From Holophagaceae bacterium (lineage in GTDB: Bacteria; Acidobacteriota; Holophagae; Holophagales; Holophagaceae): a stretch of DNA of 56,902 nt. The DNA lies in contig JANYBM010000080.1 in the NCBI GenBank assembly GCA_025361125.1, positions 1-56,902 on the forward strand, in the 5' to 3' direction. Under the pieces are notes generated by a model, which did not search any database, was not told where the DNA came from, and worked only from the letters and a program-made list of their open reading frames with translations. Shown piece by piece: positions 181 through 6,830 of this stretch. Within the stretch, counting starts at the first letter, position 1; each line of letters starts with the position of its first letter. Both the position numbers and the translations under genes were made by a program.

Positions 181-216
181 CGGTCACCCCCTCACAGGAA
201 GGAGTAGGGGTGACCG
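181..216. terminator. Inverted repeat between convergent genes, probable terminator
   Basis: Perfect 10-bp arms CGGTCACCCC (181-190) and GGGGTGACCG (207-216) with a 16-nt loop. It lies between the plus-strand partial gene and the end of the minus-strand Ig-repeat gene. Read on the minus strand it is followed by TCCTGTTT, a weak T-rich tract, so it most likely ends the large minus-strand gene. Confidence 0.55.
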
Positions 217-227
217 CCCTGCCCCGA

Positions 228-3200
228 TCAGGGGTTGCCACCTGAGTAGCTGTGGTAGCCGAGGCGGTTGGTGGTGCCCACCGCGGCGGAATCCACCAGG
301 CTGAAATTGGGAGACTTGATCTGAAGCGTGTCCACCTGGATCCATTGAGAAAAGGTGAAGGTGGGGTTCGGGGCGGTGACGGAGAAGGCCCGGACATAGG
401 AGCGGTCGAGGCCCTTGACCAGGGTCCAGTTGCTTCCCGCGGTCGTGCCGGTGTTCCCCATCCACGCAACCGAGTCGTTGATTCCAATGACATCCGTGCG
501 ATGGCTGTAGGCCGTAGCGCCGAGCGTCCCAGTTGCATCTGGTGAGAGGAAAACCACGTCATCGCCGTTGAAATTGGCCACTGACGTGCTGATCCCAGTT
601 CCCGTCACGTAAGTTGGAGTCGGCAACACCGAGGCGCTGTTAAACAGTAGGATGCTCGCACCCGGCGCGATGGTGCCTATGAACGCGTAAGTGGAGTAAC
701 TGCCACCGGTGGCAGTGTAGGGGTTGGACCAGAGCCAAGCGTACATTGGGGTGTCAGTGGCGTTGAAAGTGGAGGCGCCGACATTGGTGATCTCGATCCA
801 CTTATTGTTGCTGGTGCCCTCATAATACTGGCTGATGATCAACTGCGGAATTGCCGCAGGCGGAGTCACCGTCAGCGTGAACGTCTTGACCGTGGCGGCA
901 GCTTCGCCGTCCGTGGCGGTGACAGTGATTAGGGTGGTCCCGGTCAGCCCCGCCTGTGGCACCAGGGTAAGGGTGATGGCACCGTTCGTGTTCCCGACCG
1001 TGATGTTGGAATCCAAAAGCAGGGTGGTGTTCCCGGACGTGGCGGTCACGGTGATACTGCCGGGTGCCGTGGCATCGTCCGCGACGGAGAAGTTAATGGC
1101 TTTGGAAGTCCCCACGGTGGTACTGGAATCGGGAATCGTGGAGGGTGTAAAAGTAGGCGCGGTGTTGCTCACCACAGTGAAAGTGAAGGTCTTGACCAGG
1201 GATGCCCCGGAGGCGTCGGTGAGGGTCACGGTGATGGTGGCGCTTCCGAGTTGGGCTGCCACAGGTGTGATGCCCAGGGAAACTGCGCCGGCGGTGTTGG
1301 TCACCACCAGCTGGTCATCGGCCACAAGGTTCTGGTCGCTGGAGAGGGCTGTCACAACCAGGCTTCCGGGTGGTGTGTAATCATCAGCCACCGTGAAAGC
1401 CACCGGGGGAACGGGATTCCCGACCCGGACGGAGAGGTTGGAAAGCGTGGTGGGCGAGATGGTTGGAGGCGCATTGGTGGGGTCCACCACCGTGACCACC
1501 CGCGTAATCGTATTGGTCTGGCCTAGGCTGTCCGTCGCGGAGAAGGTCGCAGTGAAGCTTCCGGCACTCGCATAGATGTGGGTCGTGGTCAGGCCAGTGG
1601 TTGCAGTGGGGCCATCCCCGAAGGTCCAGCTGCACCCCGAAGTTGTGTCAACGGTCCCGCCAGCCTGGTTGGGCATCACAGTGGCTTCGAAGGGGATGGA
1701 GTCCCCCATCTTCACCGTGTCTCCCTTAAGGATGGGGTTGGTGGTGATGGGAATGAGATCCCAACTCGGCTTCAGGATATGGACATTGGGTCCGCTGGCT
1801 TTTTCGAAATTGCCTCCCCATCCACGCACATCCACTGTGGCTTTCCAGGCATCCAAGGTGGCGTCATGGGGAAGGTTGGGGAAGAAATCCAACCCTGTCA
1901 GATCCTCTACCAATTTGACGGTAGTAGTGTACTTCCAGATATCGGCGCTCTCGACAGTCGCGTAGGAACGGTTGGAAGACATCCAGGCAATAACTCTAGG
2001 TAGCGTCTGCCCGGCTGCAGGTTCCGCTACAACGATCTTGTAGCAGGCAGTGGGGATGGCGATGGCAAGTGTCCCGACTGGCAGGCTTGCAGGCGTCCTG
2101 GTGTAGGTCGAAGTGGAAGGTACCCAGAAATCCGTTGTACCGGTGAAGATAGGACCTGTGTAGACCCAGGTGCGACCGAAGATGGCGGTCACCCCATTGT
2201 TGAAGACGCCACCGATGGATTTCCCGCCGACCGCTTCCTCCAGGTCATTCCACAAATGCTGGTTGTAGTAAGAAACCTGGGCGACCAGGTTGGACATGTA
2301 GGTGGCGTCATCCCCGGCCTGCTGGTTATACCGGTAGGCGACATCCGAGCGCATCGCCATGTGTCCCCGATCGAAGCCCTGGCCATTGGCCAGGTAGAAC
2401 ATGCTTCCGTGCGTACCCATGGAGGCCTTGGTTACCTGAGGGGCATCCAACCGGGTATCCGTCTGGTAGTCCCCGGTGCTGTTGGGGAAGGTGCTGTTGA
2501 CTTTGAAATCCGCGTAAGCGGTCCACGCTGGGTTCTTCAGAGTCTCGTCATACCCCAAACGGAAGGCTCCGTTGGGGAATTTGACCGGGTCCACGTGCAG
2601 GGAGGGCACGACCGTCAAAGGCCGACTGGGCACGGCCACAGGCTCGCCCCCTGGAATATAGAAAGGATTCGGTGCGACCACTGTGAAGGTGGCGCTGGAG
2701 CTTTCAATCGAGGTGATGTCGTCGCTGACTACCACCGTGTAACCGTCAGGCACTATCTTGAGGTCAGTGAAGCCAGTGGTGTAGCTGCTGGCAGTGGCTC
2801 CAGCAATGTTGGAACCATTCTTCCGCCACTGGTAGGTGAACGGCCCGAATCCGCTGGCCGCGACATTGAATTTGGCACCGTCTGGGGCTGTCACGGTCTG
2901 GTCCACTGGCTGAGTCTGGATAGTCAGATCCGAAGTCACGATGAGTATGGCCGCATCGCTTGTCACGCTCCCGGCCGGACCCGTAACCACCACCGTATAG
3001 CTGTCGGCATCGGTCGCGGTAATGGCCGTGAAGCTGAGGGATGGTGAAGTCATTCCAGGGAGATTCGTTCCATTCTTCTGCCACTGGTAAGTGAGAGGCC
3101 CCGTGCCGCTCGCCGCACAGGTCAGGGACACAGCACTCCCCTCGACGTAGCTGCCACCCTGCGGTTGGGTGGTGAAGGAAGGCAGGATGGGTGTGACTGT

Positions 3201-5957
3201 CAGGGTTGCCAGATTGCTCAACGATGATTGGCTTGCACCATTCGTGACGAGCACCGAGTAGTGGGTGCTGTTGTCGGTGGCATAAACGAGGCTTGGCGTC
3301 GTGAAAGTGGTGGCAACCGCCCCAGACAGATTGCTTCCGTTCCGCTGCCACTGGTAGGTGAAGGGACCGGTTCCACTGGCAGACACGGTGAAGGTGGCCG
3401 TCGTTCCATCCACCGCTGATTGATCCACAGGACCAAGCAATTGGGTGGGCTTGGGGATGACCGTGAGAGTGGCAGGATCACTGGCAGTGGCTTGACCTGC
3501 GGCGTTGGTCACGACTACGGAATACACTGCATGGTTGTCCGTGATGTAGACGATGGTAGGCGTCGTATAGTTGGCTGCAATCGCCCCTGGCAGGTCAATT
3601 CCGTTCCGCTTCCACTGGTAGGTGAAGGGGCCGGTGCCACTGGCAGACACTGTGAAGCTGGCGGTCGAACCATCCACGGCGGACTGATTGCCGGGACCGG
3701 CCAGTTGGGTAGTCATTGGAATCACGGTGAGCCTGGCTAGGCCACTGAATGAGAGGTGGCCTGCTCCATTGGTTACGACCACGGAATACACCGCATTGTT
3801 GTCTGTGGCATAGACGAGGGCAAGCGTCGTGTAAGTGGCGCCGACAGCCCCAGGCAAATTGAAGCCGTTTCGCTTCCACTGGTAGGTGAAGGGACCGGTT
3901 CCACTGGCAGAAACCATGAAGGTCGCAGTCGCACCATCCTCGGCCGATTGATCCACAGGACCGACCAGTTGGGTGGCCTTGACGATCACGGTCAGTTTCG
4001 CCGGGCCACTGGTGGTGCCCTGGCCAGCTCCGTTGGTTACCAACACGGAGAACACCGCATTGTTGTCCGTGGCGTAGACGAGGGCAGGCGTCGTGTAGGT
4101 GGCGCCCACAGCCCCAGGCAGATCAATTCCATTCCGTTTCCACTGGTAGGTGAAAGGGCCACTACCCGTCGCGACCACGGAGAAGGTGGCGGTCGAACCA
4201 TCCACTGCCGATTGATCGCCAGGACCGACCAGTTGGGTGGAGTTGGAAGTCACGGTGAGCTTCGCCTGGCCACTGATGGTGACCTGGCCAGCTCCGTTGG
4301 TCACGGCCACAGAGTACGCCGCATTGTTGTCTATGGCATAGACGAGGGGAAGTGTCGTGCAGGTGGTGCCGACAGCCCCAGGCAGATCGCTTCCGTTCCG
4401 CTTCCACTGGTAGGTGAAGGGGCCGGTTCCACTAGCGGCAACCGAGAATGTGGCGGTCGCACCATCCACTGCCGATTGATCGGCAGGACCGAGCAGTTGG
4501 GTGGGTTTGGGGATCACGGTGAGCTTCGCCTGGCCACTGGTGGTGACCTGGCCAGTTCCGTTGGTTACAGCCACGGAATACGCCGCATTGTCGTCCGTGG
4601 CATAGACGAGGGAAAGCGTGGTGTAGGTGGCGCCGACAGCCCCAGGCAGATTGCTTCCGTTGCGCTTCCACTGGTAGGTGAAGGGACCAGTTCCATTAGC
4701 GGTAACGGCGAAAAGGGCCGTCGAGCCATCCAAGGCAGACTGATCACTCGGCCCCACCAATTGGGTCGGTTTGGGGGTCACCGTGACTTTGGCGGGGCCG
4801 CCGGTGGTGGCTTGGCCTGCTCCGTTGGTTACGAGCACGGAACACACAGCATTGTTGTCGGTGGCGTAAACGAGAGTGGGGGTGGTGTAGCTGGAGGCAA
4901 TGGCCCCAGGCAGATCGGTTCCCTTCCACTTCCACTGATAAGTGAAGGGGCCGGTTCCACTGGCGGAAACCGAGAAGGTGGCTGAGGAACCGTCCACCGC
5001 GGACTGATCGCCCAGGCCAACCAATTGAGTGGGTTTGGGGGTCACGGTGAGCTTAGCCGAGCCACTGGAGACAGCCTGGTTCACCCCATTGGTCACCACC
5101 ACGGAATACAGCGCATTGTTGTCCACCGCATAGGCCAGGGAAGGTGTCATGTAGCTGGCGTTGGTGGCCCCCGGCAGAACCACGCCATTCCGCTTCCATT
5201 GGTAGGCGAACGGCGCCGTTCCATCCACGGATACATTGAAGCTCGCGGTGGAACCATCCAGCACCGTTTGATCGACCGGGCCAGTCAGCTGGGTGGCCTT
5301 GGGGGTCACGGTGACTAAGGCGGAATTGCTGGGGGTGGCCTGTCCGGCCCCATTGGTCACGACCACGGAATAAGCCATCTGGTTATCCGACGCATAGACA
5401 AGGGCCGGTGTGGTGCAGGTGGCCGCGTGGGCTCCGGCTACATCGACTCCGTTCCGTTTCCACTGGTAGGTGAACGGTCCAGTACCACTGGCGGCGATCG
5501 TGAAGGTGGCCGGTGCACCGTCCAGGACCGTCTGATCTGATAAGCCAGTCAGGACCGTGGTTTTGGGCGTCACACTCAACTTGACCGCATTACTGGTGAC
5601 GGTTCCGGCGGAATTGGAGATGACCACGTTGAAAGTCGCTCCGTGATCACTCGCGTAGACAACCTGCCCAGTCATATAGCTCGCATTGATGACCCCGGCC
5701 AAAGGAGCGCCGTTGCGGTTCCACTGGTACGTGAGGCCCTCACCACTGGCCACAACAGAGAAGCTGGCCGGGGTTCCATCCAGGACTGTCTGGTCGGTCG
5801 GCTGGGAGGTGATAGCTGGAGCGGACTTTTGACTGGATCCGCCACAACCCAAGGCAGCAAAAAGCGAACAGACCATGGCAGCCGGGACCAAAAAGCCACC
5901 CGCAGCCTTCGCCTGACGGCGGAACAGCTCACTCCAATGGGCGAAGAATTGCGGCAT
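228..5957 (-). CDS. Giant Ig-repeat lipoprotein with a DNA/RNA non-specific endonuclease domain and lamin-tail-like C-terminus
   Basis: 1,909 residues. The N-terminus is charged, then hydrophobic, ending in a lipobox-like LGC about residue 38, so it is probably exported and lipid-anchored. Residues ~44-1090 hold twelve Ig-like repeats of ~88 residues, each with a TYQWKRNG-type core. Residues ~1119-1370 form a Serratia-nuclease-type domain: DRGHM supplies the catalytic His, and YMSNLVAQ...NQ..W..LE the metal-binding Asn region, ending in an IPTACYKIVV strand typical of the fold. Then come a PKD-like domain (~1396-1489), two Ig/cadherin-like domains (~1490-1700), and a C-terminal ~200 residues starting QLIISQYYEG...KWIEITN, resembling a lamin-tail domain. 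An AGGAG Shine-Dalgarno sequence precedes ATG 5957. Likely role: cell-surface or released nuclease for extracellular nucleic acid. Its partner and target are unknown. Confidence 0.88.
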   Translation of the reverse strand: MPQFFAHWSELFRRQAKAAGGFLVPAAMVCSLFAALGCGGSSQKSAPAITSQPTDQTVLDGTPASFSVVASGEGLTYQWNRNGAPLAGVINASYMTGQVVYASDHGATFNVVISNSAGTVTSNAVKLSVTPKTTVLTGLSDQTVLDGAPATFTIAASGTGPFTYQWKRNGVDVAGAHAATCTTPALVYASDNQMAYSVVVTNGAGQATPSNSALVTVTPKATQLTGPVDQTVLDGSTASFNVSVDGTAPFAYQWKRNGVVLPGATNASYMTPSLAYAVDNNALYSVVVTNGVNQAVSSGSAKLTVTPKPTQLVGLGDQSAVDGSSATFSVSASGTGPFTYQWKWKGTDLPGAIASSYTTPTLVYATDNNAVCSVLVTNGAGQATTGGPAKVTVTPKPTQLVGPSDQSALDGSTALFAVTANGTGPFTYQWKRNGSNLPGAVGATYTTLSLVYATDDNAAYSVAVTNGTGQVTTSGQAKLTVIPKPTQLLGPADQSAVDGATATFSVAASGTGPFTYQWKRNGSDLPGAVGTTCTTLPLVYAIDNNAAYSVAVTNGAGQVTISGQAKLTVTSNSTQLVGPGDQSAVDGSTATFSVVATGSGPFTYQWKRNGIDLPGAVGATYTTPALVYATDNNAVFSVLVTNGAGQGTTSGPAKLTVIVKATQLVGPVDQSAEDGATATFMVSASGTGPFTYQWKRNGFNLPGAVGATYTTLALVYATDNNAVYSVVVTNGAGHLSFSGLARLTVIPMTTQLAGPGNQSAVDGSTASFTVSASGTGPFTYQWKRNGIDLPGAIAANYTTPTIVYITDNHAVYSVVVTNAAGQATASDPATLTVIPKPTQLLGPVDQSAVDGTTATFTVSASGTGPFTYQWQRNGSNLSGAVATTFTTPSLVYATDNSTHYSVLVTNGASQSSLSNLATLTVTPILPSFTTQPQGGSYVEGSAVSLTCAASGTGPLTYQWQKNGTNLPGMTSPSLSFTAITATDADSYTVVVTGPAGSVTSDAAILIVTSDLTIQTQPVDQTVTAPDGAKFNVAASGFGPFTYQWRKNGSNIAGATASSYTTGFTDLKIVPDGYTVVVSDDITSIESSSATFTVVAPNPFYIPGGEPVAVPSRPLTVVPSLHVDPVKFPNGAFRLGYDETLKNPAWTAYADFKVNSTFPNSTGDYQTDTRLDAPQVTKASMGTHGSMFYLANGQGFDRGHMAMRSDVAYRYNQQAGDDATYMSNLVAQVSYYNQHLWNDLEEAVGGKSIGGVFNNGVTAIFGRTWVYTGPIFTGTTDFWVPSTSTYTRTPASLPVGTLAIAIPTACYKIVVAEPAAGQTLPRVIAWMSSNRSYATVESADIWKYTTTVKLVEDLTGLDFFPNLPHDATLDAWKATVDVRGWGGNFEKASGPNVHILKPSWDLIPITTNPILKGDTVKMGDSIPFEATVMPNQAGGTVDTTSGCSWTFGDGPTATTGLTTTHIYASAGSFTATFSATDSLGQTNTITRVVTVVDPTNAPPTISPTTLSNLSVRVGNPVPPVAFTVADDYTPPGSLVVTALSSDQNLVADDQLVVTNTAGAVSLGITPVAAQLGSATITVTLTDASGASLVKTFTFTVVSNTAPTFTPSTIPDSSTTVGTSKAINFSVADDATAPGSITVTATSGNTTLLLDSNITVGNTNGAITLTLVPQAGLTGTTLITVTATDGEAAATVKTFTLTVTPPAAIPQLIISQYYEGTSNNKWIEITNVGASTFNATDTPMYAWLWSNPYTATGGSYSTYAFIGTIAPGASILLFNSASVLPTPTYVTGTGISTSVANFNGDDVVFLSPDATGTLGATAYSHRTDVIGINDSVAWMGNTGTTAGSNWTLVKGLDRSYVRAFSVTAPNPTFTFSQWIQVDTLQIKSPNFSLVDSAAVGTTNRLGYHSYSGGNP
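2690..5830 (-). repeat. Array of twelve ~264-bp Ig-domain repeats
   Basis: Within the nuclease lipoprotein gene, units of about 264 bp recur. Repeats 4 to 10 (about 3,200-5,040) are very similar at DNA level, for example the recurring CCACTGGTAGGTGAAGGG and CCAGTTGGGT. Outer units (1-3, 11, 12) are more diverged. This suggests recent amplification or gene conversion of the central units. Unit count may vary between strains. Confidence 0.85.
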
Positions 5958-6830
5958 GTCTGCTCCTGAATGCCCGCCGAGTTCGTTTCGGCCAGGAAGT
6001 TAGTTGATAAAAACAGTGAATTGAATTTTCAATTTATTGATTGAATGTAAATTCCATGTGATATATATAAAAATTATCAAATAATTATATTTGATAATTT
6101 TTTATAAACATATTAATAAATTTATTATTTGCCCTTGTTCTTGGCGCCCTTTGCCTGTAATTGTTTTGAGTCTCATTTGAGGATATCCCATCAAGGACTT
6201 CCACTAGACAAATACATCGGAAGGAAAACGAAAATATTCAATTTCTTTTCTCTTAATTTTCTATTAATGATAAATAAATTTACAAAAATAAAAACGAATT
6301 ATTAACGTATTTATAAATTAAAAAATAAAAATACTAACAATTTACAATTATAATAAATTATTATAAATAATAAATACAATAATTTTTTATAACTAAATAT
6401 AATAACCCAAAAAAACAATACCTTAATATTTTTTCAACGTCAATGATTGTTAGCTGAATTATGATGCTAATAATTTTTTTGTGATATTAGTCATAATTAC
6501 CACGCACCACTCCCTTCCCTACTCAATCCAGAGTCAGGGTGTTGGCGAAATTAGTGAGGTAGGACCCGAAGTGTCTAGATGGTTCACAAACCCCATTTAG
6601 AGGGCATGGGGGGGCTGGGCCTTTGCACTTATACAGCCGAGAATCGCCTGGATGACTCTCGGTTTCGTTGTCCAGGCTGTCCATTGCTTCCGGCCCAGGT
6701 AGTTCGAGCAAGCAAGGACTTCGTCAGCAAATGCGCCCTAGTGGAGCTTCAACCAAAGATCAAAAATCAGAAATTTCGCCAACTCATCGCAGAAATTCAG
6801 GACCAAGGCCCAAGGCGGTAGCATCACTGC
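5958..6830. other. 873-bp intergenic region with a strongly AT-rich block
   Basis: About 5,995-6,520 is overwhelmingly A+T (long runs of AAATAATAAATA type), in sharp contrast to the GC-rich flanks. It holds no plausible gene. It contains a perfect 14-bp inverted repeat (6,069-6,102) and many TATAAT-like hexamers, so it probably includes the promoter of the nuclease lipoprotein. The remaining ~310 bp before ruvC return to normal composition and show only a weak CCGAGA/TCTCGG inverted repeat near 6,640-6,665. Confidence 0.7.
6069..6102. repeat. Perfect 14-bp AT-only-stem inverted repeat
   Basis: Arms AAAAATTATCAAAT (6069-6082) and ATTTGATAATTTTT (6089-6102) flank the loop AATTAT. It lies 110 bp upstream of the start codon of the nuclease lipoprotein, inside the AT-rich block. 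It could be an operator, a site for a nucleoid-binding protein, or a weak terminator-like hairpin. The sequence alone does not decide. Confidence 0.7.

Follow-up and report, generated by a model that had tools for sequence, protein, structure and literature searches.

In the window, the whole 56,902-nucleotide stretch of DNA that was analysed, one gene encodes a large modular protein in which a Serratia-type endonuclease domain lies behind an array of Ig-like repeats, and this combination of repeats and nuclease is far beyond chance. We favor the view, as a probable rather than a secure one, that the protein is an envelope-tethered general nuclease which scavenges or clears extracellular nucleic acid, rather than a toxin aimed at neighboring cells. 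Once exported by Sec and, probably, lipidated at C38, the protein would hold its metal-dependent nuclease away from the membrane on a beaded Ig stalk, and the nuclease would cut extracellular DNA and RNA at or near the cell surface without sequence preference. The PKD, Ig-like and lamin-tail-like domains that come after the nuclease may attach to the envelope, to matrix or to nucleic acid, and the products would probably be used as nutrients (phosphorus, nitrogen, nucleosides) and/or the cutting would loosen biofilm DNA. Genes for secreted nucleases have been noted in activated-sludge bacteria, Acidobacteriota among them (PMC11495043), and the window gene extends the known exported nucleases of this phylum to a stalked, probably lipid-anchored form.

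Table 1. Positions of the features discussed (window coordinates unless a locus is named).
Feature	Position	Strand	Basis
Whole gene, modular exported nuclease (protein P0001; 1,909 aa, ATG start)	228..5957	-	
Ribosome-binding-like site AGGAG, 5 nt before the ATG	5963..5967	-	read directly
Signal peptide and candidate lipobox AALG-C38, residues 1-38	5844..5957	-	pattern match, hydrophobic region
12 Ig-like repeats, period 85-89 aa, residues 44-1096	2670..5828	-	Pfam and direct count
Endonuclease_NS (PF01223), residues 1131-1364	1866..2567	-	Pfam, profile, model, fold match
DRGH motif, residues 1196-1199, with general-base His H1199	2361..2372	-	alignments
Metal-site Asn N1232 (= NucA N155)	2262..2264	-	alignments
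PKD, residues 1416-1488	1494..1712	-	Pfam
Two Ig/cadherin-like (Big_9-type) domains, ~residues 1492-1695	873..1484	-	alignment, model; Big_9 matches in relatives
Lamin-tail-like domain, residues 1700-1810	528..860	-	sub-cut-off Pfam; cap alignable in 8 relatives
Upstream gap, AT-rich (21% GC) and lacking any convincing gene	5990..6500		composition scan, ORF check
Perfect 10-bp inverted repeat CGGTCACCCC/GGGGTGACCG immediately behind the stop codon, 16-nt loop; resembles a terminator but has no T run	181..216		read directly
Operon-like trio in relatives: barrel, NHL/He_PIG lipoprotein, nuclease lipoprotein	L048:772-11150; L054:8273-19202; L058:7420-16710; L059:1460-11093		

An earlier note, made from the letters of this DNA, had proposed a series of Ig stalk, nuclease, PKD domain, Ig-like domains and lamin-tail-like tail, and the whole series was found by Pfam or by alignment. 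The Serratia-type identity given to the nuclease was borne out. Pfam scored Endonuclease_NS at 84.5 bits (E 1e-23), well above the cut-off of 23, and the protein contains the only copy of this domain in the source genome. Mitochondrial EndoG proteins were the best solved relatives in phmmer searches, and the profile of the window protein's own family matched Anabaena NucA (E 1e-69) and, less strongly, Serratia nuclease (E 7e-34). An AlphaFold model of the nuclease from a 36-row alignment (pLDDT 88, pTM 0.90) was matched by Foldseek to EndoG, Serratia nuclease and NucA with E values of ~1e-12 to 1e-15, and also to EXOG, the TM score by target being at most 0.78; the domain as modelled has the beta-beta-alpha-metal nuclease fold. 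An 819-residue model from 13 close sequences had left the nuclease part unmodelled, and it was the more diverse 36-row alignment that resolved it. Searches of the PDB and of viral folds with the 819-residue model returned generic Ig/cadherin-type matches, which were uninformative on function.

The DRGH motif and the metal-site Asn, described in the same note as intact, are in place. Alignment paired R122, G123, H124, N146, Q150, N155, W159 and E163 of NucA with R1197, G1198, H1199, N1223, Q1227, N1232, W1236 and E1240 of the window protein, so that the Glu is kept as well. The note had staked its reading on an Endonuclease_NS match and on the catalytic His and Asn, and all three were found. 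Two arginines are replaced, R93 by S and R167 by N beside a gap, and the NxxPQ motif has P changed to A. We take R93 and R167 to be accessory active-site arginines in NucA and Serratia nuclease which occur in many members of the family without defining it. R93 is missing in most Holophagaceae kin and R167 in all of the large family proteins, and distant acidobacterial proteins mostly keep both. The core RGH, N, Q, N, W and E are present in nearly all rows of the family alignment, with three exceptions: L036 and L038 have D for the first N, and L060 (2363-3226), with RSH for RGH and with Q replaced by M, may have lost or shifted its activity.

NucA (PDB 1zm8, 2o3b), Serratia nuclease and EndoG/EXOG thus share with the window domain the fold and the core R-G-H, N, Q, metal Asn, W and Glu, but they are small single-domain enzymes, whereas the window domain is set within about 1,900 residues, carries extra loops (for example, some twelve residues ahead of DRGH) and is without R93 and R167. 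Since the core residues are kept but these arginines are replaced, an active enzyme whose phosphate-binding site is altered is probable, and its activity could be weak or altered. It most likely cleaves both DNA and RNA, with a predicted metal dependence and no sequence specificity. We consider it unlikely that the protein is instead catalytically crippled or non-catalytic, keeping the fold for adhesion or nucleic-acid binding, mainly of biofilm DNA. Such a protein might be expected to lack the equivalents of R93 and R167, to show the P to A change in NxxPQ and to carry a large adhesive complement of Ig, PKD and LTD domains, as this one does; however, the general-base His, the metal Asn and the Glu are retained family-wide, which decay would not preserve, and another Arg near the motif (e.g., the R of 'TRL') could compensate.

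The twelve Ig-like repeats reported before the nuclease were confirmed in two ways: Pfam found 12 stretches of Ig_3 (E 2e-57), and YQW-centred repeats, counted directly, numbered exactly 12 at spacings of 85-89 aa. Repeats 2-10 are pairwise 59-81% identical in protein and 65-84% in DNA, and the array was therefore expanded by duplication, though not very recently. It is the longest Ig array among the relatives found. As a spacer keeping the enzyme off the membrane, twelve Ig domains would span ~50 nm if extended at 4 nm per domain.

The description of the protein as lipid-anchored held in part: an anchor is probable in the window protein, but the family as a whole does not share it, since a plain signal peptide is found in nearly half of the relatives. 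The candidate lipobox, MVCSLFAALG-C38, fits a PROSITE-type pattern but is non-classical at -3/-2 (classically L-A/S-G-C), and lipidation at C38 is therefore graded as probable. The Cys at this position is kept in close relatives of the protein. A lipobox-type Cys was seen in 14 proteins (that of the window, L036, L037, L048, L050-L054 and L057-L061), although only part of them fit the strict pattern, and LMPAC or APGC occurs in several. In 11 relatives (L039-L047, L049, L055) the region is of an ordinary signal-peptidase-I-like kind and has no lipobox Cys. That the lipid anchor is not universal in the family, to go by these N-termini, is new here, as are the gene linkage of the lipobox-type relatives and the exchange of C-terminal caps described below.

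Surface display is not the default for Gram-negative lipoproteins, and nothing in the window shows export past the outer membrane; a lipoprotein which remains on the periplasmic side of a membrane and breaks down incoming DNA (during uptake or from phage) would suit both points. We nevertheless give this reading a low probability, and the window protein would more likely be exposed on the outer surface. At 1,900 aa with 12 Ig repeats the protein is long for the periplasm, and the relatives with plain signal peptides look secreted. In addition, an Oar-like outer-membrane barrel adjoins the lipoprotein relatives, and Oar, a TonB-dependent transporter, is required for secretion of the protease PopC in Myxococcus (PMC6434023).

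This locus of barrel, NHL protein and nuclease in the relatives is the most promising lead from our analysis, as it offers a concrete and testable candidate for how these bacteria might handle extracellular DNA. Clustering of the flanking ORFs revealed a conserved pair of neighbors: an Oar-like protein with CarboxypepD_reg and an outer-membrane barrel, and a lipoprotein-like NHL/He_PIG protein of ~1,100 aa. In L048, L054, L058 and L059 the pair lies before the nuclease in the same direction with gaps of 4-80 bp, and in L050-L053 it is divergent from the nuclease. In L037 and L060 the end of an NHL gene is directly upstream of the nuclease, where the contig ends. Every one of the 10 linked nucleases, from 10 genomes, carries the lipobox-type Cys, and 0 of the 11 with plain signal peptides are linked (Fisher p 0.0005, an overstatement of the evidence since the rows are related; upstream sequence is also scant for L043). 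L048 falls within the plain-signal-peptide clade on the tree, yet it has both the Cys and the barrel/NHL locus.

Each genome contains 14-32 barrel-type match pieces, often several per gene; with so many barrels, a single one near a nuclease could be due to chance. The same gene set across genera, as it reads from these loci, would not easily arise that way. We tentatively suggest, with more doubt than confidence, that the Cys-type nuclease, the Oar-like barrel and the NHL lipoprotein form a dedicated surface machine of Holophagaceae for either Sus-like import of nucleic acid or Oar-type export, with anchored and free nucleases as alternative deployments switched along with the locus. Because Oar is needed for protease export in Myxococcus, export has to be given the same weight as import. 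The Oar-like protein with CarboxypepD_reg and barrel, found next to the Cys-type nuclease in relatives, is absent beside the window gene, as is the rest of the pair, and no relative of the NHL protein was found in its genome at E<=1e-40 (assembly 91.6% complete). The literature searched contained no account of a barrel/NHL/nuclease locus.

Behind the nuclease, the PKD domain was matched by Pfam at E 2e-9. The lamin-tail-like region scored 24.9 bits for LTD, and 28.5 bits when the C-terminus was scanned alone, so that the Pfam gathering score of 34.3 was reached by neither the full protein nor the C-terminus. Its pLDDT in the 819-residue model is only about 35-80. Nevertheless, a cap with the pattern 'LIISQYYEG..NKWIE.TNVG' was aligned at the same place in nine proteins (that of the window, L036, L037, L038, L041, L043, L044, L047 and L060), with weak LTD matches in L044 and L060. 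A second cap ('FEAGTKTxYA...LDDFxIxGY' or similar) is found in L039, L042, L046, L048, L050-L054, L056, L058, L059 and L061, and the sequences scanned gave no Pfam or NCBIfam match to it. The type of cap changes at least three times across a maximum-likelihood tree built from the nuclease domains; the tail has therefore been exchanged while the nuclease-PKD core was retained.

The nuclease segment was matched in 25 of 77 Holophagaceae genomes and PF01223 in 24 of the 77. Relatives include Geothrix paludis, a Geothrix MAG and a Holophagaceae MAG; identity in the nuclease is highest for G046 (73%), G060 (71%) and G068 (66%). The nuclease is absent from all four of the other genomes of the same genus. 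By Pfam, 16 relatives have Ig-like domains (Ig_3/I-set, some He_PIG), Endonuclease_NS, PKD, usually Big_9 and a C-terminal cap, and in L058 the PKD domain is followed by an Ig domain. Our systematic comparison covered Acidobacteriota (these 77 family genomes and 297 genomes of the phylum), and the latter yielded long Endonuclease_NS proteins in other acidobacterial families. Four of these (L088, L089, L090 and L091; 1,333-1,825 aa) contain LTD, Big_5 and Endonuclease_NS. Their ingredients are those of the window protein, but LTD and Big_5 are placed before the nuclease and TSP3, HYR, PKD or cadherin-like domains behind it. The nuclease domains measured among such proteins are only 22-31% identical to that of the window, and those that were aligned retain R93 and R167.

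The earlier note knew of no exact parallel to the architecture, but our comparison gives no support to its being singular: the same domain order recurs in Holophagaceae, and LTD, Ig-like and Endonuclease_NS domains are combined elsewhere in Acidobacteriota. The Holophagaceae order, compared at the level of sequence, is thus a variant of a kind also present elsewhere in the phylum. In L091 (4239-9371; 1,711 aa), LTD, Big_5 and Endonuclease_NS occur with several cadherin-like/Big_9 domains and two PKD domains. Genomes of genus g9 encode stand-alone Endonuclease_NS proteins of 259-296 aa with an apparent signal peptide (L063-L067). A phage origin was rejected, since phage records gave only distant nuclease matches (25-29%).

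Among described systems, ExeM of Shewanella, together with its relatives, is similar in being an exported, membrane-associated nuclease with an LTD that degrades extracellular DNA (PMC6085458), and removal of its LTD slows DNA degradation (PMC6085458). ExeM differs in having an EEP nuclease, an N-terminal LTD, an OB-fold-like region and a C-terminal transmembrane anchor, whereas the window protein has Endonuclease_NS, a lipobox and an Ig stalk; Pfam found no EEP catalytic domain in the window protein. In Izemoplasmatales, clustered loci for DNA degradation encode a protein with nuclease and lamin-tail domains (PMC8289736).

An attack on neighbors, raised in the earlier note, is very improbable. 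The protein would then be a contact-dependent or shed antibacterial toxin, either stalked or moved by outer-membrane exchange like SitA, and it does superficially resemble the SitA lipoprotein toxins of myxobacteria in combining lipoprotein and nuclease (PMC8546572); adhesin stalks can also be built from Ig arrays. However, no conserved small neighbor fit for an immunity role was found among the compared homologue loci, where a toxin with its immunity gene was looked for and rejected, and there is none beside the window gene. The nuclease is central rather than C-terminal, with more than 500 aa after it, the Pfam scan contained no delivery module and the catalytic domain is conserved (54-73% identity among kin) rather than polymorphic. 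PADLOC gave no match, and no NuiA-type inhibitor was found, a weak result since the controls were also silent.

The general nuclease that we favor is encoded by a gene which stands alone, with no DNA-catabolism gene adjoining it. The gap upstream is about 510 bp long and lies within a region of roughly 59% GC; beyond it are a divergent ruvC and then a DUF255/thioredoxin-type gene. In three genomes of the same genus (L102, L103 and L104) the block to the right of ~6790, from ruvC onwards, is conserved at 73-87%, and to the left of this position the nuclease is absent and other genes are present. As synteny is intact on the right and broken on the left, the nuclease was gained, moved in, or lost in the others. 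Foreign DNA was not indicated by composition: GC (59.9%) and GC3 (71%) match the neighbors, so that a recent import is not marked in this way, and it is synteny that marks the site as flexible. At the other end of the gene, positions 1-105 look like the 3' end of a plus-strand gene that runs convergently to the nuclease gene (C-terminal residues AKVWRNGNASALTDGTQTARGYGIAVTAH, then the stop) and is cut by the contig end.
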